From: Deltaproteobacteria bacterium
GTDB lineage: Bacteria > Desulfobacterota > GWC2-55-46 > UBA9637
Direction of reading: 5' to 3'
NCBI GenBank assembly: GCA_016219285.1
Contig: JACRNJ010000060.1
Coordinates: 1-62,652 of the forward strand
DNA: 62,652 nt
Shown: piece by piece, positions 8,622-60,960 of the stretch
Numbering within the stretch: the stretch's first letter is position 1
Layout of the letters: every line of letters starts with the position of its first letter
Position numbers and translations under genes: made by a program
Notes under the pieces: model-generated
Seen by the model: the letters and a program-made list of their open reading frames with translations, nothing else
The model's database searches: none
Told to the model about the DNA's origin: nothing

Positions 8622-8640
8622 AGGAACCTCCCTTCTTAAT

Positions 8641-8698
8641 TTACGATTTACGATTTGAGATTTTAAATCGTAATTCGTAAATCTAAAATCGTAAATCT
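8641..8698. repeat. Heptamer repeat junction (ATTTACG type)
   Basis: Direct copies of ATTTACG-like units are followed by their reverse complement (AATTCGTAAATC), so the junction can fold into a long imperfect hairpin. The M16 peptidase stop codon (residues KDLRF then TAG) is read from the repeat. Confidence 0.75.
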
Positions 8699-12595: not shown

Positions 12596-12653
12596 GCGCA
12601 TAGCGACCCACCCCTTCCCCTCCAAGGAGGGGAAGGGGTGGGTCGCTATGCGC
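12596..12653. repeat. Perfect 58-base palindrome upstream of rpsO
   Basis: Two 28-base arms (GCGCATAGCGACCCACC... and its exact complement) surround a 2-base centre. In the truB-rpsO mRNA this would form a 28-bp duplex, a plausible RNase III substrate. The CCCCTTCCCCTCC part resembles palindromes at 21083-21129, 47202-47263 and 58084-58124. No U-run follows, so it is not an ordinary terminator. Confidence 0.85.
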
Positions 12654-14599: not shown

Positions 14600-14740
14600 A
14601 TAAATTTCTAATTTCTAAATCCTAATTCCTAATAAAATGTCAAAAAACATAAATTATAAATTGGGTTATCGGACACTTAGTTGGAAACATGTCCCCGAAG
14701 GCCTTCATCGGGGATTAGACATTAGGATTTAAAAATTGTA
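14600..14740. repeat. Repeat junction nrnA-rbfA with a CCCCGA/TCGGGG palindrome
   Basis: TAATTTCTAAATCCTAATTCC at one end pairs imperfectly with ATTAGGATTTAAAAATT at the other. In the middle at 14693-14713 is the palindromic unit here called P5 (CCCCGA, 9 bases, TCGGGG, preceded by ACATGT), which recurs inside tyrA and dnaE. Confidence 0.75.
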
Positions 14741-18921: not shown

Positions 18922-18940
18922 AAAAAACCTCCCACCCAAG

Positions 18941-18998
18941 ATTTACGATTTTAGATTTGAGATTTTTAAATCGTAATTCGTAAATCATAAATCATAAT
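18941..18998. repeat. Heptamer repeat junction (ATTTACG type)
   Basis: GATTTACGATTTTAGATTTG is followed by AAATCGTAATTCGTAAATC. It is almost the same sequence as the junction at 8641, between unrelated genes, and fills the rimP-nusA gap. Confidence 0.75.
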
Positions 18999-19456
18999 TG
19001 TATCTCCAGCCTTGCCTTATCAATATCGTTAAAGGGTATCTCCCATCTTTTGCCTTCGCTGTCTATCAAAAAAACCATGCCTTCTTTAAAATCATCCAGT
19101 ATTGCCAGAAAGTTTCTCCTGCCCAGTATCGGCTGTTTTGTCTTAATCTTTACCTTTCTGCCCTTATACCTTACGAAATCCTTTTCTCTCGTTAGGGCTC
19201 TGTCAAGGCCGGGAGAGGATACCTCAAGGGTATAACTATGGTGAATAATATCCTTTACTTCCAGTATAGTCCCAAGCTCAGCGCTAACATCACCGCAGTC
19301 GTCAACTGTTATCCCTTCCTGTTTATCTATAAAAAACCTAAGAACCCATCGCCCATGCTCCATTTTATATTCAATATCAACGAGCTCCATCCCTTTTTCC
19401 AGCAGAACAGGCTCTGCTAATTCCCTTACCTGCAATATTACATCTTCTACCTTCAA
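18992..19456 (-). CDS. rimP: Ribosome maturation factor RimP
   Basis: 30S assembly factor of 154 residues. ELAEPVLLEKGMELVDIEY, FIDKQEGITVDDCGDVSAEL and LEVSSPGLDRALTREKDFVRY are characteristic. The start is TTG at 19456, giving (M)KVEDVI, with GGAG 6 bases upstream; the frame is open to 19507, but that extension runs into a terminator-like hairpin. It is first in the nusA-infB operon, and the upstream hairpin could attenuate the operon. Confidence 0.94.
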   Translation of the reverse strand: MKVEDVILQVRELAEPVLLEKGMELVDIEYKMEHGRWVLRFFIDKQEGITVDDCGDVSAELGTILEVKDIIHHSYTLEVSSPGLDRALTREKDFVRYKGRKVKIKTKQPILGRRNFLAILDDFKEGMVFLIDSEGKRWEIPFNDIDKARLEIQL

Positions 19457-19792: not shown

Positions 19793-21007
19793 ATGACAAG
19801 TAATGAAATGAATTTTCATATGAAGGATAGAAAAATAGACAGGGTAGTTCTGCTTATTCTTGATAGTGTAGGTATAGGTGAATTGCCGGATGCGAAAGAT
19901 TATAAAGATAAAGGAAGCAATACCCTTGGAAATATAATCAAAACCCTTGGAGGCATTGCTATGCCAAATCTTGAAGCCATGGGCATGGGCCTTATTCAAG
20001 GTGTCGAAGGGCTTAAAAAATTTAGCAATCCAATTGCCTCTTATGGCAGAATGGCGGAGGCATCTCAAGGCAAAGATACTTCTACAGGCCACTGGGAGAT
20101 TACAGGGCTTGTCCTTGATAAACCTTTTCCAACATATCCCAATGGTTTTCCAAAAGAAATAATGAACAGGTTTAAGAAAGCTACGGGCCTTGATTACCTG
20201 GGAAACAGGGCAGCCTCTGGCACAGAGATTATAAAAGAACTTGGCGAGGAACATATTAAAACAGGCAAACCAATCGTATATACCTCTGCCGACAGTGTTT
20301 TCCAGATTGCGGCACACGAAGATATAATACCTGTTGCTCGGCTGTATGAGATATGCAAGATTGCAAGAAAGATTGTTAATAAATATAACATCGGCAGGGT
20401 CATAGCAAGGCCGTTTGCTGGCGGCAAAGGCTCATTTAAAAGAAGCGAACATAGAAAGGATTTTTCTTTAACTCCAACAGGCGAAACAATTTTGGACAAA
20501 TTAAAGGAGAGCGGGTTTCCTGTCATCGGTATTGGCAAGATAGGCGATATATATGGACATCGCGGACTTACACAAGAGATACATACAAAGAATAATATGG
20601 ACGGGGTTAATAAAACCATAGATGCGATAAGGAAAATAAAGAAAGGCCTCATATTCACAAACCTTGTTGACTTCGACATGCTCTATGGCCATAGGAATGA
20701 TGCGATAGGTTATGCAAAGGCGCTGGAGGAAGTTGATAAGCGGATACCTGATATGCTTAATCTTTTAACTGATGGTGATATGCTTATCATAACTGCCGAC
20801 CACGGGTGTGACCCAACAACCCCTTCAACAGACCATTCCAGAGAATATGTTCCACTGCTTGTCTACGGCAAAAAATTAAAACCTGGTATTAACCTTGGAA
20901 CGCGAAAAACCTTTGCCGATGCGGGGCAGACAATTGCAGAGGCGCTTGAGGTAGGCAGGATAAATAACGGAAGTTCGTTCTTACAAAAGATAATCTCCCA
21001 AAAATAG
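19793..21007 (+). CDS. deoB: Phosphopentomutase
   Basis: Interconverts ribose/deoxyribose 1- and 5-phosphates in nucleoside salvage; alkaline-phosphatase superfamily with two Mn ions. Visible are [15 protein letters not shown] near residue 20, [11 protein letters not shown] (phosphorylated Thr region), [14 protein letters not shown], and the C-terminal metal site [20 protein letters not shown]. Starts at 19793, 19808 or 19820 are possible and none has a strong Shine-Dalgarno. It stands alone between divergent rimP and convergent cysC. The TAG stop is supplied by the P1 palindrome at 20997. Confidence 0.95.
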
Positions 21008-21247
21008 ACATTGTTTTTTGGGGAAACCTGCAAGTCCTTGACAGACGTTTCACCTGTCAAGGGCAAGTTGCCTGCCAGACAACACACCCCTAAATCCCCT
21101 ATCGAGAGGGGACTAAAGGGGTGGGTTGTGAGGAGTAAAAATTGGCCGATAACGAAGTATGGCAGGCAAATCGACTGGCTCCACTTGCTGCGAAGCGATT
21201 GCAAGTGGAAGATGTAAAATAGCGAGTGTTTCAATCGCTATTTTACG
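20997..21247. repeat. Composite palindromic repeat, family A copy 2
   Basis: P1 palindrome (20997-21022), the CTTGACAG...CTGTCAAG hairpin, an inserted CCCCT/AGGGG palindrome (about 21083-21129, TCGAGAGGGG centre), the core ATAACGAAGTATGGCAGG, an extra hairpin CCACTTGC...GCAAGTGG and the terminal AAAATAGCGA...TCGCTATTTT hairpin. This is the richest mosaic of the three copies. The 115 bases from 21248 to 21362 show nothing recognisable. Confidence 0.8.
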
Positions 21248-21362
21248 GTAATCTGAATCTATTTTAAAAGTATCTATTAACGTGCCATATTGTCATTCCT
21301 GTAAAAATTGTTGATGCAAAAGCAGGGAAAGCACATCCATAGGGTGTTGAATTTACTGTTAC

Positions 21363-22017: not shown

Positions 22018-22198
22018 TAAAGTTCACGCTCAAAAATTGCCCAGATGCAAGGCGATTGTAGTCTGCCGATTTATCGGCGCTTTTAAAAACGCCCATAAAT
22101 GGGCAATCTACAGGTATGTTGAGCGAAGAAGCAGCAGCGACAACGTCGCGGGCGCCCATGACAGAGTCATGGGTCAGGCATTTCTCAACATGAACTAG
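22018..22198. repeat. Palindromic element, family B copy 1 (nested)
   Basis: Imperfect outer arms (GTTCACGCTCAAAAATTGCC and, at the other end, GGCATTTCTCAACATGAAC) enclose an inner unit TGTAGTCTGCC...GGCAATCTACA. That unit contains two small hairpins (GCCGATTTATCGGC and GCCCATAAATGGGC). The whole fills the stretch between cysC and the stress-protein gene. Confidence 0.75.
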
Positions 22199-22681: not shown

Positions 22682-22788
22682 CGTAGTTGCCCAATTTATT
22701 GGGCGGTTTTGTAACTCAAGGCTTTAGCTTTGAGAAATCTCAAACCTGAAGGTTTGAGTTACAACCGCCGATAAATCGGCAAACTACA
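22682..22788. repeat. Palindromic element, family B copy 2 with inserted hairpin
   Basis: CGTAGTTGCCCAATTTATTG at one end and CCGATAAATCGGCAAACTAC at the other form the outer stem. Between them lies a separate hairpin, 22711-22763, with arms GTAACTCAAGGCTTTAGC and AACCTGAAGGTTTGAGTTAC. The same hairpin unit occurs inside the ppc coding sequence at 45341. The stop of the permease gene (TAG) lies in the outer arm. Confidence 0.8.
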
Positions 22789-24211
22789 ATTTTATTCCTA
22801 TCATCGGCCAATAAAATCTGGCTGTCATATTAAATACTACCCATGCCAGTATCATCATGACAATCCCTGCCTTTGCCATATCCTTTGTAGTTATGTAACC
22901 CGATGAAACCGCTATAGCATTTGCAGGTGTTGCCATTGGGAAGCAAAAAGCTAATCCTGCCGGAACCGCAATCGCATAGGTAATAAGCTTTGGCTCTATG
23001 TTAAATTGAGAAGCCATGCCTATGCCAACTGGCAGCAAGATTGCTATAACAGCGGCATTACTCATGCCTTCAGTAAGAAGTATTGTTAAAAGAGAAAATA
23101 TGGCTATAACCAATAAAGGGCTGTTTGCCCAATCGCCGATAATCGTATTTGCTATCCACGCTGCAGCGCCTGACTTTTCCATTGATGCGCCAAGTGTTAT
23201 AGCGCCGCCATACATAAGGATTATACCCCAGTTTACATACTCCTCAATATCCTTCCACCTTACCAGCTTTAATATAAAAAGGGCTACAACAGAAACAATG
23301 GCTATATTGGCAATACCGAGGCTTTTGCCAAAAAACAGCCAAAACAGTATTGTTATTATCATTACAAAACCCACAGCATATTCCATATATCCTGTCTTCC
23401 CAATCTCCTTCATTTTTCTTTCAAACACGGATTTTGCCAGATGTATATCTTCTATATCCGATGGAAAAAATCTGGTGAGCCAAAAATAGCCTATCAGGAG
23501 CATTATCAGCACGGTTGGAAACACCATCACAGTATATTCAAAGAAATCAATATTTATGCCTGTAGCCTCTTTCAGCATACCGACAGCTAGTGGAACCCTT
23601 GCCCCTCCCAGAAATGTTGCAATACCGCCGATTATACATCCCCACGCAAGCGCAAGAAAAAGCGATTTTGCATAATTTGACTTCCCTGGCTTGAGATTTA
23701 AACCCTTTGCTATTTCAAGCACAATGGGAAAAAGCATTGCTGCCACCGCATGCTCTGACATAAAAAATGAAAGCACAGCAGCTAATATAAATATGCTGAA
23801 AACAAGGCCTGCCGGTGTATTCCCAAACCTATTCATGATAGCCAGAGCTATTCTGCTGGATAGCCCGGAATGCATAGCTGCGCCGGCAAGAATAAACGCG
23901 CCTAGTATAAAAAAAACCGCCTCGTTCCCGAACAGGGCATATGTCTCTTTCTTATCCAGTATTCCAAGCAGAGGCACTGTTACAATGGCCAGAAGGCTTG
24001 TTATGGCAAGGGGAAGCAGGCCTGTAACCCATAGGATAAGGCAAACAACAAATAAAGCAATTGCCCTTTGCCCTTGGATTGTCAATCCATCTGGTGTGGG
24101 AAGATTTATAATATAAAAGAAGAACAGCCCAGTTGCCAAGAAAAATACAGGTCTGAAACTTTTTAAGATAATAATAAGCCAAATGCGGCGCCTGTCTATC
24201 TGTACCTTCAT
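22784..24211 (-). CDS. DASS/SLC13 family anion permease
   Basis: Polytopic inner-membrane transporter of 475 residues with about 11-13 hydrophobic segments. It belongs to the divalent anion:Na+ symporter family (LWVTGLLPLAITSLLAIVTVPLLGI, then FGNEAVFFILGAFILAGA). The two SNT-like substrate and sodium motifs are altered, reading FFMSEHAVAAMLFP and LTEGMSNAAVIAILLP. Family members move sulfate, dicarboxylates or phosphate. Placement with cysC and a cysteine-synthesis cluster favours sulfate or another sulfur anion, by context only. The last codons run into the family B repeat. Confidence 0.88.
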   Translation of the reverse strand: MKVQIDRRRIWLIIILKSFRPVFFLATGLFFFYIINLPTPDGLTIQGQRAIALFVVCLILWVTGLLPLAITSLLAIVTVPLLGILDKKETYALFGNEAVFFILGAFILAGAAMHSGLSSRIALAIMNRFGNTPAGLVFSIFILAAVLSFFMSEHAVAAMLFPIVLEIAKGLNLKPGKSNYAKSLFLALAWGCIIGGIATFLGGARVPLAVGMLKEATGINIDFFEYTVMVFPTVLIMLLIGYFWLTRFFPSDIEDIHLAKSVFERKMKEIGKTGYMEYAVGFVMIITILFWLFFGKSLGIANIAIVSVVALFILKLVRWKDIEEYVNWGIILMYGGAITLGASMEKSGAAAWIANTIIGDWANSPLLVIAIFSLLTILLTEGMSNAAVIAILLPVGIGMASQFNIEPKLITYAIAVPAGLAFCFPMATPANAIAVSSGYITTKDMAKAGIVMMILAWVVFNMTARFYWPMIGIKL

Positions 24212-33574: not shown

Positions 33575-33702
33575 TTTTTTCTGTCATTCCCACAGTCTTT
33601 AAGCGGGAACCCAGAGTCTTTCTGTTTTCGCCAGTATCGCAAAAGACACTGGATGCCTCCCCGAATGTCTCTATCGGGGATAGAAGCATTCGGGCATGAC
33701 AG
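33575..33702. repeat. Palindromic element with CTGTCAT ends
   Basis: Outer arms CTGTCATTCCC and CGGGCATGACAG enclose smaller palindromes, including a P5 unit (CCCCGAATG...CTATCGGGG, 33659-33679). The rest of 33542-33839 shows no coding frame. The element marks a break between the two accessory operons. Confidence 0.7.
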
Positions 33703-34657: not shown

Positions 34658-35560
34658 CTACCCCCTCTTCAAGCCATCCCTTACTGTTTTTGCCTTTTCA
34701 AATTCCTTTTGAAGCCCCTCTCCATCGCTATCTTTTATCATCTCCTCCAGCCCTTTAAGCGTCTCCTGAAATCTCCGGACAACATCAAGTATGGCATCTT
34801 TGTTTAAAAGGCAGATGTCCCGCCACATCTCAGGCGGGCTTGAGGCAATGCGGGTAAAATCCTTAAAGCCACCTGCCGAATATTTTATAATGCTTTCATT
34901 GAAATCATTTCCCCGATTAAAGCCTTCGGGGACATGTATATTGCTTACAGTGTTTACAAGGCCGTAGGCAACCACATGCGGCAGATGGCTTACAGCGGCA
35001 AGGATTTTGTCGTGTTTTTCGGCATCCATGACGATTACTTCAGAGCCTGCAATCTCCCATAACCTTTTTACCTTTTGAAGCGCGGTCTTGTTCGTTTTTT
35101 TTGTCGGGGTAATAATACATTTTCTGTTTTGAAATAACGCGGGGAATGCCGCCTCTACACCGGCATTTTCAGTGCCTGCTATCGGGTGTCCGCCCACAAA
35201 GCGGATTGTATCAGGAAGGATTTTTTCTATCTCATCAACAATGTTTTTCTTGACGCTTCCGACATCTGTGACTATTGCGCCTTTCTTGAGACAAGGCAGC
35301 GCCTCTTTTATAACCTTTGCAATGCTTGCGACAGGTATGGCAACCACAACAAGGTCTGCATCCCGGACGCCTTCTCTTGCATCCTGCGTATATGAATCAA
35401 CAACACCGAGTTTTTTTGCAGTCTCAAGATTTTTCAGCCCCCTGCCGATGCCGACAATATTTTTTGCAATCCCCCTCTCTCTCAAAATAATTGCAAGAGA
35501 GCCGCCGATAAGACCTACACCGATTATGGCAACTTTATTAAAGTGTATATCTCTTTTCAT
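34658..35560 (-). CDS. tyrA: Prephenate dehydrogenase
   Basis: NAD-dependent oxidative decarboxylation of prephenate toward tyrosine. Rossmann motif VGLIGGSLAI (residues 15-24), GGHPIAGTENAGVEAAF and LPHVVAYGLVN (substrate His) are clear. In place of the usual short turn after the His region, the protein reads NIHVPEGFNRGNDFNESI. The HVPEGFNRGNDF part is encoded by the P5 palindrome at 34911-34937 and looks like an in-frame insertion of about 12 residues before YSAGGFKDFTRIA. There is no ACT domain. Length is 300 residues. Confidence 0.95.
   Translation of the reverse strand: MKRDIHFNKVAIIGVGLIGGSLAIILRERGIAKNIVGIGRGLKNLETAKKLGVVDSYTQDAREGVRDADLVVVAIPVASIAKVIKEALPCLKKGAIVTDVGSVKKNIVDEIEKILPDTIRFVGGHPIAGTENAGVEAAFPALFQNRKCIITPTKKTNKTALQKVKRLWEIAGSEVIVMDAEKHDKILAAVSHLPHVVAYGLVNTVSNIHVPEGFNRGNDFNESIIKYSAGGFKDFTRIASSPPEMWRDICLLNKDAILDVVRRFQETLKGLEEMIKDSDGEGLQKEFEKAKTVRDGLKRG
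34911..34937. repeat. P5 palindromic unit inside tyrA
   Basis: CCCCGA, 9 bases, TCGGGG, then ACATGT. It differs from the intergenic copy at 14687-14713 at only a few loop positions, and is translated in frame as HVPEGFNRG. Confidence 0.8.
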
Positions 35561-35591: not shown

Positions 35592-35768
35592 CCAAAAATC
35601 AATGTCTATTTTGGGGTTGCTGGTTCATGCTCAAAAATTGCCCAGATGCAAGGCGCTGTAGTTTGCCGATTTATCGGCGCTTTTAAAGACGCCCATGAAT
35701 GGGCAAGTTACAGATATGTGAGCAGCGCAGCGACGAAGGCAACACGGCAGATGGGTATTCAGCATTAA
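35592..35768. repeat. P1 palindrome plus family B element, copy 3
   Basis: A P1 unit at 35592-35616 is followed by a family B element (GTTCATGCTCAAAAATTGCC, inner TGTAGTTTGCC...GGCAAGTTACA with two hairpins, closing arm ending GTATTCAGCATTAAC). P1 is therefore able to join either family. The stretch is otherwise empty between tyrA and aroF. Confidence 0.75.
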
Positions 35769-40330: not shown

Positions 40331-43300
40331 ACCTTTTTGTATTTACAACAACACTCCCATCCCCCAAAAGCGCTTCAATGTCTTTTACAAATTTTTCATA
40401 CGGTGCAACCCTAAGATTATCGGATGCTTCAATGACCACCTCTCTGTCATCCAGCAAAATATGGAAATAGACCGTGGTGCTGCCTGAATGGGCATTTAAA
40501 ATTCCCTTTATTTCCTCCAGAGAGCCATTCCCAAATTTAACCGCGCCTGCTTTAATATGAACAGAGGGCTGATTTTGGGATTCATGGTCTCTGTTTTTGC
40601 TGACCCCTGCTCCCTGACCCCCGATAGAAACATTCGGGGGCAGGCCCCTGACCTCAATTTCTTTTGTCTGCGCTGCCGGCTGCTTCAGCTTCACCCCTGC
40701 CAGAGGAAACACGGAACTCGCGATAATCTTTACATTCTCCTCCCCTTTATCAATCTTGCCTTTTACCAGAATAGGCGCATCACCGCTGAAATAGGAAGCG
40801 GCATTTTTATACACATCGGAAAATACAACTACCTCAACAGAGCCTTTGAGGTCTTCCAGGGTAACAAAGGCCATCCGGTCTCCCTTTTTTGTGTTTATCT
40901 CCTTTGCCGCCGTTACTATGCCGGCAATACTTACATCTTCATCGTCCGATTTTTCTTTTAAGCTGTCCGTATCCGCATTTGCTAAATATTTAAGCTCGTT
41001 TGCGTATTTTTCAAGAGGGTGGCCGGTAATGTAAAAACCCAGCGCTTCTTTCTCATAATGTAAGAGCTGGGCCTCATGCCATTCCTCTATGTGCGGAAGC
41101 ATGGGAACAGCTTGCAAATTTATGCCCGGCACCGCACCAAATATGCTTATCTGACCGTTATCCCTGTCTTTCTGCACAGCCTGTGACATATCCATAATCT
41201 TATCCAGTGACGTCATGAGCTGCGCCCTTTTTGCGCCGGTGAAATCAAATGCCCCGCATTTTATCAGGCTTTCTATAACACGTTTGTTCACCTTTCTCAA
41301 GTCAACCCTTGTGCAGAAGTCTGCCATAGAGGTAAACTGTCCGTCCTGCTCTCTTGTCTTGAGTATCACATCTATTGCAGCTTCCCCAACATTCTTTACT
41401 GCGGCCAAACCGAACTTTATCTTATTGCTGACAACGGTAAAATCTTTCCTGCTTTCATTCACGTCCGGCGGCAGTATTCCAATTCCCATATCGCGGCATT
41501 CTCCGATATATTTAATTACCTTGTCGGTATCAGCCGTTTCAGAAGTCAGCATCGCCGCCATAAATTCCACGGGATAGTGCATCTTGAGATATGCAGTTTG
41601 ATACGCAATGAGCGCATATGCTGCGCTGTGAGACTTGTTAAACCCATAACCGGCAAAGTTTGCCATGAGATCAAAAATCTTTTCTGCCTTCTTCTGCTCT
41701 ACCTTATTCTTCTTTGCCCCTTCAATAAATCTTTCCCTTTGGACTACCATCTCTTCGGGAAGTTTTTTGCCCATTGCCTTTCTCAGCACATCGGCGTCAC
41801 CCGGGCTGAAGCCTGCAAGAACCTTGGCTATCTCCATGACCTGCTCCTGATAAACAATTACGCCATAGGTATTGGCCAGTATATCCTTAAGCTGGGGAAG
41901 TTCATATTTTATTGGCGCTTTGCCGTGCTTTCTTTTTATAAAATCATCAACCATGCCGCTTTGGAGCGGTCCAGGCCTATAGAGGGCAACAACCGACATA
42001 ACATCTTCAAACGTCTCAGGTTTCAACTTTCTGAGCAGCTCTTTTATGCCGGAGCTTTCAAGCTGGAATATACAGTTTGTATTGCCGGAACCAAGAAGTT
42101 TATAGGTGCCAACGTCATCAAGCCTTACATTATCTATATCAAGCTCTATCCCCTTATTCTCTTTTACCAGCTTTACCGTACTGTCTATAACCGTCAGGGT
42201 TTTTAAACCAAGAAAATCAAACTTGACAAGGCCTATCTTTTCAACGGCCTTCATATCATACTGCGTTGTCACAACCTCTTCCTTGGGTCCCTTGTAGAGA
42301 GGGAGATATTCTATTAAAGGCTTATTTGCTATGACAACGCCGGCAGCATGGGTGGATGCATGACGGGGAAGACCTTCCAGAGTTTTTGCCACATCCATCA
42401 ATTCTTTAATCCGTATATCCTTGTCAATAAGCTCCTTCAGCCTCGACTCCTGTTTAACGGCATCATCAATGGTTATATTCAATACATTGGGGACAAGCTT
42501 AGCTATTTTATCAACCTCGCTGTAGGGTATATCCATTGCCCTGCCCACATCCCTTATCACCGCCTTCGCCCTCATCTGGCCAAATGTTATTATCTGGCTC
42601 ACATTATCCTTGCCGTATTTTTCCGAAACATATCTTATTACATCGTCTCTGCCTTCAATACAGAAATCTATATCAATATCAGGAAGACTTATCCTGTCAG
42701 GGTTCAAAAATCTTTCAAAAAGGAGATTGTGTTGTATAGGGTCCAGATTGGTAATGCCGAGCGCATAGGCAACAAGACTACCCGCAGCTGACCCCCTGCC
42801 GGGCCCTACCGGTATATGTTGTTTTTTGGCAAAGTTTATGAAATCCGCCACAATAAGAAAATATCCTGCAAACCCCATTGCCTTAACTACCTTAAGTTCT
42901 TTTTCCAGCCTTTCATAATAGTGCCATTTCGTGATTTCGGATTTCGGATTTCGGATTTCGGATTTTACTTCACCTTCCTCTCCCCTTTCTTCCTCCAATC
43001 CCATCGCCCTTAACCGCTTCTCCAGCCCATGCCTTGCTTGATTCTCAAAAAAGGCATCAATATCATTGCCGTCCGGAACAGGAAAAACAGGCAGGTGATG
43101 TTCTTTAAGTTTAAGCTCTAAATTGCACCGCTCGGCAATCTCTATAGTATTCTTTATTGCCTCCGGATAGCTGCTAAACGCCGTTTCCATCTCTTTTGGA
43201 GACTTGAAATAAAACTCATCAGTCCTGAACTTAAGTCTGTCGGTGGCATTTACCGTTTTTCCTGTCTGGATACAGATAAGCACATCATGCGCCCTTGCCT

Positions 43301-44116: not shown

Positions 44117-47086
44117 GTGGATTATGTGGTAAGAGATAAGAAGAAAAGACCGCCTCGCCAGCTTTCCAATCATCTTATACATGCGAAAGATAAAGCCCTT
44201 CTTGATGATATAGCCTATCTAAAAACAATCCTCCATCAGGTTCTTGAGGAACAGGTTGGGGCAAGGCTGCTCAAGGTCATAGAAGACCTGAGCGCAGCCA
44301 GCGCCCTTCCTGCCAAATACATAAGCCGCTCAATATTATCCAATAAATCCCGGCGCCAAAAATTTTGGTATGGAGGCAGCCTGTTAAAAAAGGTAAAAAG
44401 CCTTAGTCTGAATGAGGCAGTCCGGATTATCCAGGCATACTCAATAAATTTCCAGCTTATCAATCTGGCCGAAGAAAATTTCAGCATGCAGGACAGACGG
44501 GCAACGCAAAGGAACGGCCAGCCTGTCCCCGGCTCTCTGGAGGAATGCATCAAATCGTTTAAGCAAAAAGGCATTGGTCATGATGAAGTGCAGCTTCTCT
44601 TAACCCGACTCGGGGTCATGCCGGTAATAACAGCGCACCCAACAGAGGTGAAAAGAAGAACCGTTCTGGAAAAACACAGAAAGATATATCTTGCAATATT
44701 CAAAAAGGAAAACACTATATGGACAAAGAGAGAAAAAGAGCTTATACGGGAAGACATACTGGGAGAGGTTCAGAAGCTCTGGCAGACCGGAGATATACGG
44801 CTGGCCCGCCCCAGGGTAGAAGAAGAAGTTTTAAACGGTTTTTTTTATTTCAATAAAACATTTTTTGACGTCCTGCCCATGCTGTATGACGAGCTTTTTT
44901 ACCAGCTTCGCAAATATTACCCCGGATATAAATTTTTCATGCCCCGGACGGACGGCAGCCGCCGGACTGCCTTCCTGCCGCTATTCTCATTCGGCAGCTG
45001 GATAGGCGGCGACAGGGATGGAAATCCGTTTGTAACCAGTGAAAAGATAAACTGGACGTTAACGTCGCACAAGGAATTAGTCCTTTCCAAATACGTAGAA
45101 ATCGTATCTGCGCTTATATCCAAATTAAGCATATCCCGGCAGCTTATCTCTCCCAGCAGCGAGCTTCTTACATCCATAAAGCATGATGCGCGAGATATGG
45201 ATGCTGACGGACAAAAGATACTATCAAGAAATCCCCATGAACCATACCGACAGAAACTTTCTCTTATCAAGAGAAAACTTGAAAATACCTTAAAGGCAGG
45301 GGCCAGGGGGCAGGGGTCAGAGGGCAGGTTTGAAGAAACTGTAACTCAAGGCTTTAGCCTTGAAGGCGTCAAACCTGAAGGTTTGAGTTACAGGAACGCT
45401 GAAGAATTTATACAGGATTTGAACATAATAAAGGCAAGCCTTCATGAAAATAAGGGAGAAAGGATTTCAAAACTTGATATTGAGCCGCTGATAAGGCAGG
45501 CAGAAACCTTTGGCTTTCATCTGGCAAAGCTGGATATACGGCAGCACAGTGAAATCCATAGAATGGCTATTGCAGAATTGTTAGAAAAGGCCTGCATTGT
45601 AAAATCAGGATACCTTGCCTTGCCGGAGCATGACAAGGCAAGGATCCTTTCCAAAGAGCTTGCCTCTATAAGACCTTTGGTGCCGGACTATCTGCATCTG
45701 TCACCCGAAACAAAAGAGGTCCTGGATACATTCAGGGTAATCAAACATGCCCAGGAAGAAATAAGCTGGGATGCCGTAGGCTCTTACATAGTCAGTATGA
45801 CGCACAACGCAAGCGATATCCTGGCCGTTCAGCTTCTGGCCAAGGAGGCTGGGCTTTGCGGGGTCGGCGGCGATAACGAGCTGTTTAACAGGCTTGACAT
45901 CGTGCCGCTCTTTGAAACCATAGACGACTTAAGGAGGGCTCCGGCTATACTCAGAGAACTATTTTCAAACCATACCTATAGAAGATATCTTGCAAAAAGA
46001 GATAATATGTATGAGGTTATGCTCGGCTATTCAGACAGCTGCAAAGACGGCGGCATATTAACATCAGGGTGGGAACTCTATCAGGCTCAGAAGATAATAA
46101 CAGAGACGGCAGCGGCATATAAGCTTAAGCTGAAATTCTTTCATGGAAGAGGCGGTACCGTCGGCAGAGGCGGAGGCCCTACGCACAAGGCAATCCTTGC
46201 CCAGCCGCGAGGCACGGTCAACGGCCTTATCAAGATAACGGAACAGGGCGAAGTCATATCCTCCAAATATGCAAATCTCGGCACAGCATTGTATAATTTA
46301 AACATGCTCGTTGCCGGGGTTATGGAGGCAACATTAGACAGTGAACAGTTAACGGTTAACAGTGAACAGTCAAACAAAGAAATTATATTTGAGGAGGCAT
46401 TCAAGGAAATTTCCGAAATATCTTACAGACTCTACCGGGAGCTGGTTGATGATGCGGATTTTTTAACATACTTTTATCAGGCCACTCCCATAGAAGAACT
46501 GGAGCATCTCAATATAGGCTCCCGGCCAACATACAGAAAGGGGGGCGGCAAGGTAGAAGATTTGCGGGCAATCCCATGGGTTTTTAGCTGGAACCAAAGC
46601 AGACATATCGTACCGGGATGGTATCCGTTTGGTTCCAGTCTGGAGACGTTTATCGGCGGCAATGCCGGGCGCAAGAGGCTCCTTCAGGATATGTATGAGC
46701 ATTGGCCATTTTTTAATAATCTCGTAGATAATATTCAGATGGTTATCGCAAAATCAGACATGACAATCGCCGGATTCTACTCTTCATTGGTAAAAGATAA
46801 AAGGATAAGACATAGGATTTATAAAAAAATCAATGCGGAGTTTAACCTTACGGTAAAAATGCTCTTAATGATTACAAAACAAAAGAAGATATTGGATAAC
46901 AGCCAGTTTCTTCAAAAATCTATAGATATGAGAAAACCGAGTATAGACCCCGTAAATTATATTCAGGTCACACTTTTAAAACGACTGCGAAATGGAAGTT
47001 TAACCGGCAATGAAAAAGAAAAATTAATCGCAACGCTCATGATGAGTATCAACTGCATCGCAGCCGGGCTGCGTAACACAGGCTAA
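44117..47086 (+). CDS. ppc: Phosphoenolpyruvate carboxylase
   Basis: Anaplerotic carboxylation of PEP to oxaloacetate, 989 residues. The catalytic His region VITAHPTEVKRRTVL, SWIGGDRDGNPFVTSEKI, LGYSDSCKDGGILTSGWELYQAQ, the loop FHGRGGTVGRGGGPTHKAI and RAIPWVFSWNQSRHIVPGWYPFG are all present. It is longer than usual in part because of two repeat-derived insertions: GARGQGSEGRFEETVTQGFS and following (DNA 45295-45392) and LDSEQLTVNSEQSNKE (DNA 46338-46372). The start is GTG at 44117 or 44126; GGAAGGTGG serves the latter better. It is monocistronic, with repeats downstream. Confidence 0.96.
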   Translation: MDYVVRDKKKRPPRQLSNHLIHAKDKALLDDIAYLKTILHQVLEEQVGARLLKVIEDLSAASALPAKYISRSILSNKSRRQKFWYGGSLLKKVKSLSLNEAVRIIQAYSINFQLINLAEENFSMQDRRATQRNGQPVPGSLEECIKSFKQKGIGHDEVQLLLTRLGVMPVITAHPTEVKRRTVLEKHRKIYLAIFKKENTIWTKREKELIREDILGEVQKLWQTGDIRLARPRVEEEVLNGFFYFNKTFFDVLPMLYDELFYQLRKYYPGYKFFMPRTDGSRRTAFLPLFSFGSWIGGDRDGNPFVTSEKINWTLTSHKELVLSKYVEIVSALISKLSISRQLISPSSELLTSIKHDARDMDADGQKILSRNPHEPYRQKLSLIKRKLENTLKAGARGQGSEGRFEETVTQGFSLEGVKPEGLSYRNAEEFIQDLNIIKASLHENKGERISKLDIEPLIRQAETFGFHLAKLDIRQHSEIHRMAIAELLEKACIVKSGYLALPEHDKARILSKELASIRPLVPDYLHLSPETKEVLDTFRVIKHAQEEISWDAVGSYIVSMTHNASDILAVQLLAKEAGLCGVGGDNELFNRLDIVPLFETIDDLRRAPAILRELFSNHTYRRYLAKRDNMYEVMLGYSDSCKDGGILTSGWELYQAQKIITETAAAYKLKLKFFHGRGGTVGRGGGPTHKAILAQPRGTVNGLIKITEQGEVISSKYANLGTALYNLNMLVAGVMEATLDSEQLTVNSEQSNKEIIFEEAFKEISEISYRLYRELVDDADFLTYFYQATPIEELEHLNIGSRPTYRKGGGKVEDLRAIPWVFSWNQSRHIVPGWYPFGSSLETFIGGNAGRKRLLQDMYEHWPFFNNLVDNIQMVIAKSDMTIAGFYSSLVKDKRIRHRIYKKINAEFNLTVKMLLMITKQKKILDNSQFLQKSIDMRKPSIDPVNYIQVTLLKRLRNGSLTGNEKEKLIATLMMSINCIAAGLRNTG
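45295..45392. repeat. G-rich heptamers plus palindromic hairpin inside ppc
   Basis: Units like GGGGGCA (45295-45328) are followed by the hairpin GTAACTCAAGGCTTTAGCC ... AACCTGAAGGTTTGAGTTAC (45341-45392). The hairpin is nearly identical to the intergenic one at 22711-22763. Confidence 0.85.
46338..46372. repeat. Heptamer repeat (CAGTGAA/CAGTTAA) inside ppc
   Basis: ACAGTGAACAGTTAACGGTT continues as AACAGTGAACAGT, a self-complementary centre flanked by direct units. Translated as SEQLTVNSEQ. Confidence 0.85.
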
Positions 47087-47090
47087 CAGT

Positions 47091-47304
47091 GAAATAGCTA
47101 TTAAAAACCTCGCTATTTTACAAACCTGCGATTTGGCTGCCATACTTCGTTATCGAACAATTTTTGTTCCTCACCGTATCGGTGAACATACGGCTCGTCT
47201 CAAATAACACACCCCTTTAGTCCCCTCTCGAGAGGGGATTTAGGGGTGTGTTGTCTAACAGCCAACTTACAGGTTTCCCCGAAAATCAATGTCTATTTTT
47301 TGGG
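47091..47304. repeat. Composite palindromic repeat, family A copy 3 (inverted)
   Basis: The reverse complement of the family A layout. The P1 unit is at 47277-47304, then comes a core without the CTTGACAG hairpin, the CCCCT/AGGGG palindrome (about 47202-47263, TCTCGAGAGGGG centre), a part shared only with copy 1 (GACGAGCCGTATG), and a decayed AAAATAGCGA hairpin next to the ppc stop. Confidence 0.8.
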
Positions 47305-47322
47305 GCTAATTTAAATACCAGT

Positions 47323-50977: not shown

Positions 50978-52352
<1,375 letters not shown>

Positions 52353-52354
52353 TA

Positions 52355-52427
52355 CGATTTTAGATTGTAGATTTAAGATTTTAGATTTTTTAAAATCGTA
52401 AATCTTAATTCGTAAATTGTAAATCAT
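52355..52427. repeat. Heptamer repeat junction (ATTTTAG/ATTTACG type)
   Basis: ACGATTTTAGATTGTAGATT and the complementary AAAATCGTAAATCTTAATTC fill the ahcY to tRNA gap, starting at the ahcY stop. Confidence 0.75.
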
Positions 52428-52431
52428 TAAC

Positions 52432-52507
<76 letters not shown>

Positions 52508-53203: not shown

Positions 53204-53341
53204 CGATGTTATAGTGGACGACAAAAATAAGTAGCTGTAGTTTGCCCAACCCAACCTTCTGTTGGGTGCCCCATGGGCGTATCCCCGCTTAAAGCCTGCG
53301 GGGACAAGTTTAAAACCGCCGATAAATCGGCAGACTACAAA
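53204..53341. repeat. Palindromic element, family B copy 4 (nested)
   Basis: TGTAGTTTGCC at 53237 pairs with GGCAGACTACA near 53335. Inside are ACCCAAC...GTTGGGTG, a P5-like CCCCGCTTAAAGCCTGCGGG (53283-53303) and CCGCCGATAAATCGG. The remainder of 53096-53395 has no coding frame or terminator that I can see. Confidence 0.7.
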
Positions 53342-53395
53342 TTTATGTCGCTGCCTATAGCAGGGAAGTTTGTCCCGCATTTTCTACAAAGCAAC

Positions 53396-56991: not shown

Positions 56992-57002
56992 CAAAACCTC
57001 CC

Positions 57003-57085
57003 ATGAAAGATTTACGATTGTAGATTTACGATTTCAGATTTTAAAGATTTTAAATCGTAATTCGTAAATCGTAAATCGTAATTGT
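57003..57085. repeat. Heptamer repeat junction (ATTTACG type)
   Basis: AGATTTACGATTGTAGATTT and the complementary TAAATCGTAATTCGTAAATC flank a short AT-rich centre. It has the same unit as 8641, 18941 and 39064. Confidence 0.8.
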
Positions 57086-57093
57086 ATTTACCA

Positions 57094-59690: not shown

Positions 59691-60960
59691 TCGCTTCTGT
59701 ATAAGCCAACCAATTTAACGGGTCCAACGGGACACCCTTCTGTCTTACCTCAAAATATAAGTGCGGACCCTTTGTGGAGCCTGTATCACCTACAAGGGCA
59801 ACTATATCTCCTTTTCCCACACTGGAATCCACATCTTTAATAATTTTCGAAAGACGGGCCAACAGGGTAAAATAGCCGTCGCCGTGGTCTATAATCATAA
59901 CCTTTCCATAACCTCTGAACCATCCTGAATACGCCACCTTCCCCTTGTAAACAGACCTAACCTCAGTCCCAATATTAGCAGCTATCTCAATACCATTATT
60001 AAAAGTAATTGTGCGAAATTTAGGATGCTCTACCTTTCCATACATAGAAATAATTTTTCCTGCTACCGGCATAGGCAGACCGCCTCGCATAGCCGCAAAA
60101 CCAAAGGTATGATTCCCTAGAGCATTTTCTGCCATATCCTTTTTGAATTTGTCTAAAAAAGACTGGAGTTCTTTAGAGGCCCCCTCCATTTCCCGTATGG
60201 CAGCAAGCTGTATGTTCTTTTTCTTTTTTATGGCTGTCAAGATAGCTTGCTTTTTATCCTTTTCCTCTTTTATCTCTCCTTTTTTGTGTTCAACCTCATG
60301 CTTTAAGGAAAATACCTCTTCCTGAAATACTTTAAGCCTTTCCCTTTCTGCTTCTAAAAACGATTGATTCTCTTTATAATCCCTTAACAGGTCAACATCA
60401 TACTCTACTATCTTATTTATATATTTATATCTTCTGCCAAAATCATTAACAGAGTTGGATGAAACAAGCGACTGCATTATGCCGCCTTTATTCATCTTAT
60501 ACATGGCAACCAATCGTTGGTTCAAAAACCCTGCAAGCCTTTCACTCTCGCTCACCAATGTTGTAATACGGGCATCCACAACGTTCCTTTTTCCCTTTAG
60601 CTTAACAATATTATCTTCTATATCTGCCAACTCTTCCTCTTTTTTAAATCTTGCCTTATCAAGTCTTTCCAATTCCTCAAGGATATTATTCTCTTTTTTA
60701 ACATTATATTCTAAACTTTTCCTTTTTTCCACAATCTCTCTTTTAAGAGATTCCAGCTGCTTTTCTTTCTTTACAACCTCGCCCTTGGTTTTGGGTGGGT
60801 CGGCATGGGCAGAGACAGCGAACAGCAGGCAACAGGCAGTAAACAGTAGACAGTAGGCAGGAAGCAGTAAAAGGATTTGAGATTTACGATTTACGATTTT
60901 AGATTTTAAATTCGTAATTCGTAATTCGTAATTCGTAATTGCCTGTAGCCTCATCCTCAA
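59683..60960 (-). CDS. EnvC-like murein hydrolase activator (degenerate M23/LytM)
   Basis: 425 residues. Signal peptide (about 1-51, ending SAHA-DPP), a long coiled coil (about 55-280), and a C-terminal LytM domain (GKISMYGKVEHPKFRTITFN, GYGKVMIIDHGDGYFTLLAR, GDTGSTKGPHLYFEVRQKG). Zinc-site residues seem lost: the usual HxGxD region reads NNGIEI, and the YAHL His reads Arg (LLARLS), so the domain is probably a non-catalytic activator of amidases, as in EnvC. The start is TTG at 60960 overlapping the upstream stop (TTGA), or the ATG at 60954. The signal peptide is repeat-encoded. Confidence 0.9.
   Translation of the reverse strand: MRMRLQAITNYELRITNLKSKIVNRKSQILLLLPAYCLLFTACCLLFAVSAHADPPKTKGEVVKKEKQLESLKREIVEKRKSLEYNVKKENNILEELERLDKARFKKEEELADIEDNIVKLKGKRNVVDARITTLVSESERLAGFLNQRLVAMYKMNKGGIMQSLVSSNSVNDFGRRYKYINKIVEYDVDLLRDYKENQSFLEAERERLKVFQEEVFSLKHEVEHKKGEIKEEKDKKQAILTAIKKKKNIQLAAIREMEGASKELQSFLDKFKKDMAENALGNHTFGFAAMRGGLPMPVAGKIISMYGKVEHPKFRTITFNNGIEIAANIGTEVRSVYKGKVAYSGWFRGYGKVMIIDHGDGYFTLLARLSKIIKDVDSSVGKGDIVALVGDTGSTKGPHLYFEVRQKGVPLDPLNWLAYTEAKK
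60815..60950. repeat. Heptamer repeats (CAGTAGG and ATTCGTA types) encoding a signal peptide
   Basis: CAACAGGCAGTAAACAGTAG and further units, then ATTTGAGATTTACGATTTAC and its inverse GTAATTCGTAATTCGTAATT. The ATTCGTA part is translated as the charged n-region (ITNYELRITN, KIVNRKSQI), and the CAGTA part as the hydrophobic core (LLPAYCLLFTACCLLFAV). Confidence 0.9.

Follow-up and report, generated by a model that had tools for sequence, protein, structure and literature searches.

A palindromic unit that stands both in frame in a tyrA gene and in non-coding DNA raises the question of whether one spreading element accounts for both copies and makes protein insertions. Within the window, which is the whole analysed stretch of 62,652 nt, the initial annotation had placed this unit, named P5, at 14687-14713 (ACATGTCCCCGAAGGCCTTCATCGGGG, + strand) and at 34911-34937 (ACATGTCCCCGAAGGCTTTAATCGGGG, read on the - strand). 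Both copies were recovered at these positions and are nearly identical, as had been proposed, with differences at two of 27 positions, both in the loop; moreover, they were paired as a 28-nt inverted match by an independent repeat search. The full architecture (tag, 7-bp stem and 9-nt loop) occurs four times in the window vs none in 20 Markov controls. The features discussed below are as follows.

34658..35560, - strand: tyrA, prephenate dehydrogenase of 300 aa, the host gene (ORF; Pfam PDH_N 1.8e-44, PDH_C 7.4e-28)
34910..34936, - strand: tyrA unit, CATG + TCCCCGA + AGGCTTTAA + TCGGGGA, in frame; a 27-nt gap in G003, G001 and G010, present in G006
14688..14714, + strand: second unit, in non-coding DNA; spanned by no ORF of at least 90 aa
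40618..40644, - strand: unit CCTGCCCCCGAATGTTTCTATCGGGGG, in frame in dnaE, flanked on both sides by GTCAGGG heptamers; encodes GLPPNVSIGG
53282..53308, - strand: unit CTTGTCCCCGCAGGCTTTAAGCGGGGA, within a larger palindromic intergenic repeat (GCCGATTTATCGGC...)
33654..33680, + strand: hairpin with the stem and loop of the unit and without the CNTG tag, a diverged or hybrid copy (R1 score 33.9 bits)

The tyrA insertion

The closest solved structures to the tyrA product are prephenate dehydrogenases. Alignment of TyrA with its relatives, as the initial annotation had proposed, revealed exactly nine extra residues, HVPEGFNRG, which is the peptide that the tyrA copy had been said to encode; they are common only to this genome and to G006, a member of the same family but of another genus, whose tyrA holds the same unit with one substitution. 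The nine residues are missing in G001 and G003 of the same genus, in order-level relatives and in nearly all others, as well as in the solved TyrA homologues. The extra stretch had been drawn as 18 residues long, and its flanking parts, NI and NDFNESI, are ordinary TyrA residues. In the DNA, empty and filled sites differ by exactly 27 nt (empty AATAT/AAATGATTT, filled AATAT-ACATGT...GGGG-AAATGATTT), with a shift of one base (A) in the borders not resolvable at this site. An AlphaFold2 model of TyrA (mean pLDDT 91.2; residues 212-220 below 50) positions the insert in a loop between helices 180-207 and 224-227, a prediction consistent with a tolerated surface loop.

In the TyrA gene tree, G006 groups with G003 (support 83), apart from this genome, and simple vertical inheritance of the insertion is thus unsupported; a tree from other host-gene fragments, in which some nodes are weak, placed G006 outside the rest of the family. 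The tyrA and moeA units are both present in this genome and in G006 and missing in closer relatives, a pattern that, judged from these sequences, would need parallel insertion, gene transfer or precise loss. A second tyrA 3'-end fragment (40 aa, 85%) lies downstream of the intact gene of G003 (L018:3203-3320; G003:C113:17057-17176), and a tyrA fragment with 94% identity to the G003 gene is found on a contig filed under a Candidatus Daviesbacteria MAG (L086), which probably belongs to this lineage and was misbinned.

The host of the other genic unit in the window is dnaE, encoding the DNA polymerase III alpha subunit (Pfam DNA_pol3_finger 3.8e-59), and the linker at the unit site is much shorter in relatives. 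Several further repeats were observed in the window. A larger palindromic intergenic repeat (GCCGATTTATCGGCG...GCCCATAAATGGGC), itself a target for the 27-nt unit, is found at 22055-22119, 22759-22795, 35657-35719 and 53309-53346, and AT-rich arrays of AGATTTACGATT-type near-heptameric repeats at 8636-8697, 18925-19014, 52349-52432, 57002-57091 and 60866-60941. A perfect 28-bp inverted repeat with a 2-nt loop (12596-12653) is unrelated to the unit, and a longer repeat at 1602-1815, 20990-21249 and 47086-47310, sharing pieces of 46-97 nt at 84-94% identity, is possibly a separate mobile element.

A hairpin kept by compensatory changes

A genome-wide search, also proposed initially, found the unit dispersed throughout the genome. 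Across the 2.28-Mb genome, 26 copies of the strict palindrome CCCCGA-N9-TCGGGG were counted vs zero in the reversed control. Sixteen strict copies were used to build a covariance model, which gave 132 genome matches at E<=1, the majority of them at E<=0.01. The 102 matches listed with their flanks share one architecture of a CNTG tag, a 7-bp stem and a 9-nt loop, with the stem consensus YCCCCGA/TCGGGGR, of which variants are present, and the loop [AG]NGNNTNNA; the tag reads CNTG in 84 of the 88 distinct copies. Because the covariance model itself rewards pairing, a left-half-only search with the right arm unspecified was also run, which returned 79 genome copies vs one in the reversed control. 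Among the 57 distinct 27-mers from this search, Watson-Crick pairs are formed at 368 of 399 stem positions (shuffle mean 284, maximum 305), compensatory changes are seen at four of the seven stem pairs, and a stem type, TCCCGTT/AACGGGA, newly surfaced. The hairpin is kept by compensatory changes. When folded as single-strand DNA, the unit forms the stem as drawn, gaining one loop pair at most (z about -3.3 to -4.3). No curated Rfam family matched the unit, a tRNA being the sole Rfam match in the window, and no earlier description of the unit was found in literature searches.

The distribution was counted using a pattern with both arm ends specified, for which controls gave 0 or 1 everywhere. 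By this count, this genome has 78 copies, and the 11 examined genomes of the order all contain the unit, at 18-108 copies per genome. Copies were also found in the same class (73 in G024, 14 in G019 and 9 in G032), elsewhere in the phylum (7 in G073) and in the genome of a Betaproteobacteria MAG record (15 in G100), and there were zero in most other genomes searched. One genome, G088, yielded many R1 matches, none of which fits the full CNTG pattern, so the R1 matches outside the order are not all one element. The closest named relatives of this genome are groundwater 'Deltaproteobacteria' MAGs. In IMG/VR, one viral contig per pattern contains the exact unit (L371:8470-8496, L372:2702-2728), representing possible phage or misassigned host DNA.

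Exact insertion into genes and repeats

Half of the listed matches (50 of 102, one site being counted twice) are positioned within ORFs of at least 180 aa, in both orientations and all phases: 17 in sense phase 0, 17 in sense phase 2, three in sense phase 1 and 13 in antisense. With the double-counted site removed, sense outnumbers antisense by 36 to 13 (p=0.001), and the scarcity of sense phase 1 is as expected, because that frame runs into a stop codon in the common loops. Since 27 nt equal nine codons and most frames of the unit are open, an insertion adds nine residues without a frameshift, and six different peptides arise depending on frame and strand. The hosts identified by Pfam include Memo, prephenate dehydrogenase, RarA, DNA methylases, HemW, TldD, PPDK, a HypE-like protein, GH3, QueA, PolX, the ProRS, IleRS and ValRS tRNA synthetases (proS, ileS, valS), UvrC (uvrC), UvrD, MoeA, ArgJ, a diguanylate cyclase and others, and some hold several units: three in RecG (recG) and two in porphobilinogen deaminase (hemC). 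The initial suggestion that the same unit occupies coding and non-coding DNA and makes protein insertions thus holds for about 50 in-frame copies in long ORFs, and neither of the two outcomes named initially as refuting it, the same residues in TyrA of distant relatives or absence of the unit elsewhere in the genome, was observed. A 27-base hairpin in roughly a hundred copies sits inside dozens of genes and adds nine amino acids per insertion, which means that a dispersed DNA element among the smallest known also reshapes proteins.

A single chimeric query, joining 27 fragments of host genes, was used to gather orthologues from seven relatives. Clean nine-residue presence/absence differences were seen at the protein level in many host genes, and exact 27-nt empty alleles in 11 genes: TyrA, Memo, RarA, an N6-methylase, HemW, PolX, ProRS, TatD-radical SAM, MoeA, a transglutaminase and ArgJ. 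In about four fifths of the 88 distinct copies, the base preceding the unit is identical to its last base (G..G, paired with C, or A..A, paired with T). The two bases differ in MoeA and ArgJ, which shows that the unit includes its last base and that target duplication is absent: the target site duplication has zero length at these two genes and at most one ambiguous base at the other empty-site genes. Sites with a differing neighbour base set the borders as CATG-TCCCCGA-N9-TCGGGGA, so that the unit itself stood as first described while its borders had been drawn one base over. The positions upstream favour A-A-R in the 88 distinct copies, a preference that persists after removal of the copies in heptamer arrays and palindromes. 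Taken together, the unit inserts as an exact 27-mer in either orientation, with neither duplication nor loss of target, preferring sites after A-A-R.

Units also land in each other's loops, in other palindromes and in heptamer arrays. In the TatD-radical SAM gene of G006, a second unit lies inside the loop of the first, and this genome shows the same unit-in-unit nesting in UvrC and in a GGDEF protein; 14 of the 88 copies are in or beside TCAGRR heptamer motifs, and 12 of the 88 are inside another palindromic repeat. A multicopy element of ~230 bp, often at contig ends, carries one 27-nt unit (L204, L205, L206, L207, L209, L244), and no transposase was found in it at the locus examined. The idea that the unit is an IS end was rejected, since the identical contig-end copies are one unit within this ~230-bp element.

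The inserts in RarA and ArgJ are private to this genome among the sampled genomes, with six and five empty relatives, respectively, and some insertions therefore probably arose after this lineage separated from the relatives sampled. Different units occupy one and the same position of the transglutaminase gene in this genome and in G007, and on this sequence evidence parallel insertion probably occurs. It could be argued that the sequence is ancestral, that the empty alleles are deletions and that chance, gene conversion or slippage scattered the repeats; the patchy presence at tyrA and moeA would speak for this. Nevertheless, outgroup empty sites refute this at most loci, and the privacy of the RarA and ArgJ inserts, the differing units at the transglutaminase site and the nesting all count against it, leaving the ancestral reading scarcely credible. 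That the unit is a dispersed insertion element is near certain.

Another view is that insertions are retained for a function of the peptide, or of a hairpin in the mRNA, in the host gene. Replication, repair and tRNA-synthetase genes are frequent among the hosts, and numerous intragenic REPs in other species have likewise been reported from replication and repair genes (PMC3733652). However, the peptide varies with frame and strand in six forms, the TyrA insert is predicted to be disordered, and presence varies between relatives, which makes retention for function highly improbable; selection has probably not favoured the inserted peptide, which is likely to be neutral or slightly costly.

Known systems and the putative mechanism

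The initial annotation had likened the unit to Rickettsia palindromic elements (RPEs). The likeness stands as an analogy for in-frame behaviour: RPE-1 to RPE-7 and the Wolbachia WPE are also palindromic repeats placed both between genes and in frame in conserved protein genes, as is the unit. It fails for size and tag, since RPEs occur in host-restricted bacteria and are longer (105-146 bp; PMC2229807) or CGTC-tagged (RPE-4 and RPE-6; PMC3733652), whereas the unit is 27 nt long, CNTG-tagged and found in subsurface bacteria. Protein-coding palindromic repeats have been known until now chiefly from Rickettsia and Wolbachia; here, the same outcome is seen in subsurface bacteria, where a much smaller unit with precise limits occupies dozens of sites, core genes among them, and relatives have clean empty alleles.

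GTAG- and CGTC-tagged REPs share with the unit a tetranucleotide tag adjoining a short hairpin; CGTC REPs are likewise without a known transposase, and some tagged REPs are intragenic, including in repair genes (Di Nocera 2013, PMC3733652). The unit fits their size range (a 20-40 bp palindrome with a tag at one end) but not their tags, and differs in its CNTG tag, fixed stem of 7 and loop of 9, exact 27-mer insertion and lack of a linked RAYT; no RAYT (Y1_Tnp) gene flanked by the repeat, as in a GTAG REP/REPtron, was found. Nor does it fit a MITE with terminal inverted repeats and target duplication, as no target site duplication was found.

Y1 (HUH) tyrosine transposases of the RAYT and IS200/IS605 kind recognise a tag plus a hairpin and insert single-stranded DNA while leaving no target duplication. 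If the unit were REP-like and mobilised by such an enzyme, this would explain the recognition of a tagged hairpin, the short purine-rich A-A-R target and the missing target duplication, and this genome has eight Y1_Tnp matches. There is, however, no unit near any of these eight loci, no linked or consistently co-occurring Y1 transposase, and no Y1_Tnp match in G024 (complete, 73 copies), G008 (complete, 25 copies) or G019 (98% complete, 14 copies), so a Y1 enzyme as the mover is unlikely. Separately, a TATG-TTGGGTT-N9-AACCCAA hairpin follows a Y1 transposase gene at L132:1913-1939, with the same 7/9 geometry and a different sequence.

In Nostoc and its relatives, Elhai et al. in 2008 reportedly described the SDR1-8 families, of 21-27 nt, with compensatory changes, insertion in tandem heptamers and in mini-transposons, and self-nesting. 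By that family definition, the unit shares a 27-nt hairpin with covariation, heptamer context, a ~230-bp multicopy element and self-nesting, a likeness drawn by description. SDR5 of cyanobacteria also inserts precisely inside a short target (PMC4390886; cyanobacterial SDR work is cited there and in PMC3116915). The unit is set apart from SDRs by its lineage and by sitting, systematically and in frame, in conserved protein genes for which exact empty alleles exist. Spread by reverse transcription of an RNA copy is said to have been proposed in the 2008 study for some SDR elements of cyanobacteria. Such a route would suit the conservation of the hairpin and the sense bias in genes, but RVT_1 is missing in most element-rich genomes, including G001, G003, G005, G006, G008, G009, G019 and G024, and spread through RNA is accordingly highly improbable. 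The unit thus appears, from its tag and size in the case of RPEs and REPs, to be a member of none of the tested families, resembling RPEs in behaviour and, with SDRs compared by description, cyanobacterial SDRs and tagged REPs in anatomy.

The reading that we consider likely is that of a non-autonomous 27-nt element, mobile now or in the past, a single strand of which would be pasted by a trans-acting enzyme. The exact 27-mer, the absence of duplication, the tagged hairpin, the purine-rich target, landing in hairpin loops and the sense bias point to a single-stranded hairpin intermediate, and on this anatomy and the analogy with IS200/IS605 we have moderate confidence that a trans-acting factor moves it. 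The mobile form would be a folded single strand, probably DNA, which a candidate trans-acting enzyme would paste into single-stranded or looped target DNA; insertions in genes would survive where the nine residues fall in tolerant places, such as the predicted surface loop between two helices in TyrA. More tentatively, and possible at best, machinery other than a Y1 transposase or reverse transcriptase may paste folded 27-nt strands in several bacterial lineages, choosing the site partly by a terminal-base match; if so, a nine-codon cassette keeps adding peptide loops to core proteins. With precise borders and empty alleles in hand, the movement of such small elements and their power to generate protein variation become directly testable, and annotators and structural biologists should be cautious, because inserts of nine residues in proteins from such genomes are dispersed DNA elements.

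Heptamer arrays (GTCAGAA or GTCAGGG) were also observed inside dnaE, queA, proS and other genes (window 40618-40700, L214, L221, L245). These coding arrays differ in length between relatives and look like a second source of protein insertions.
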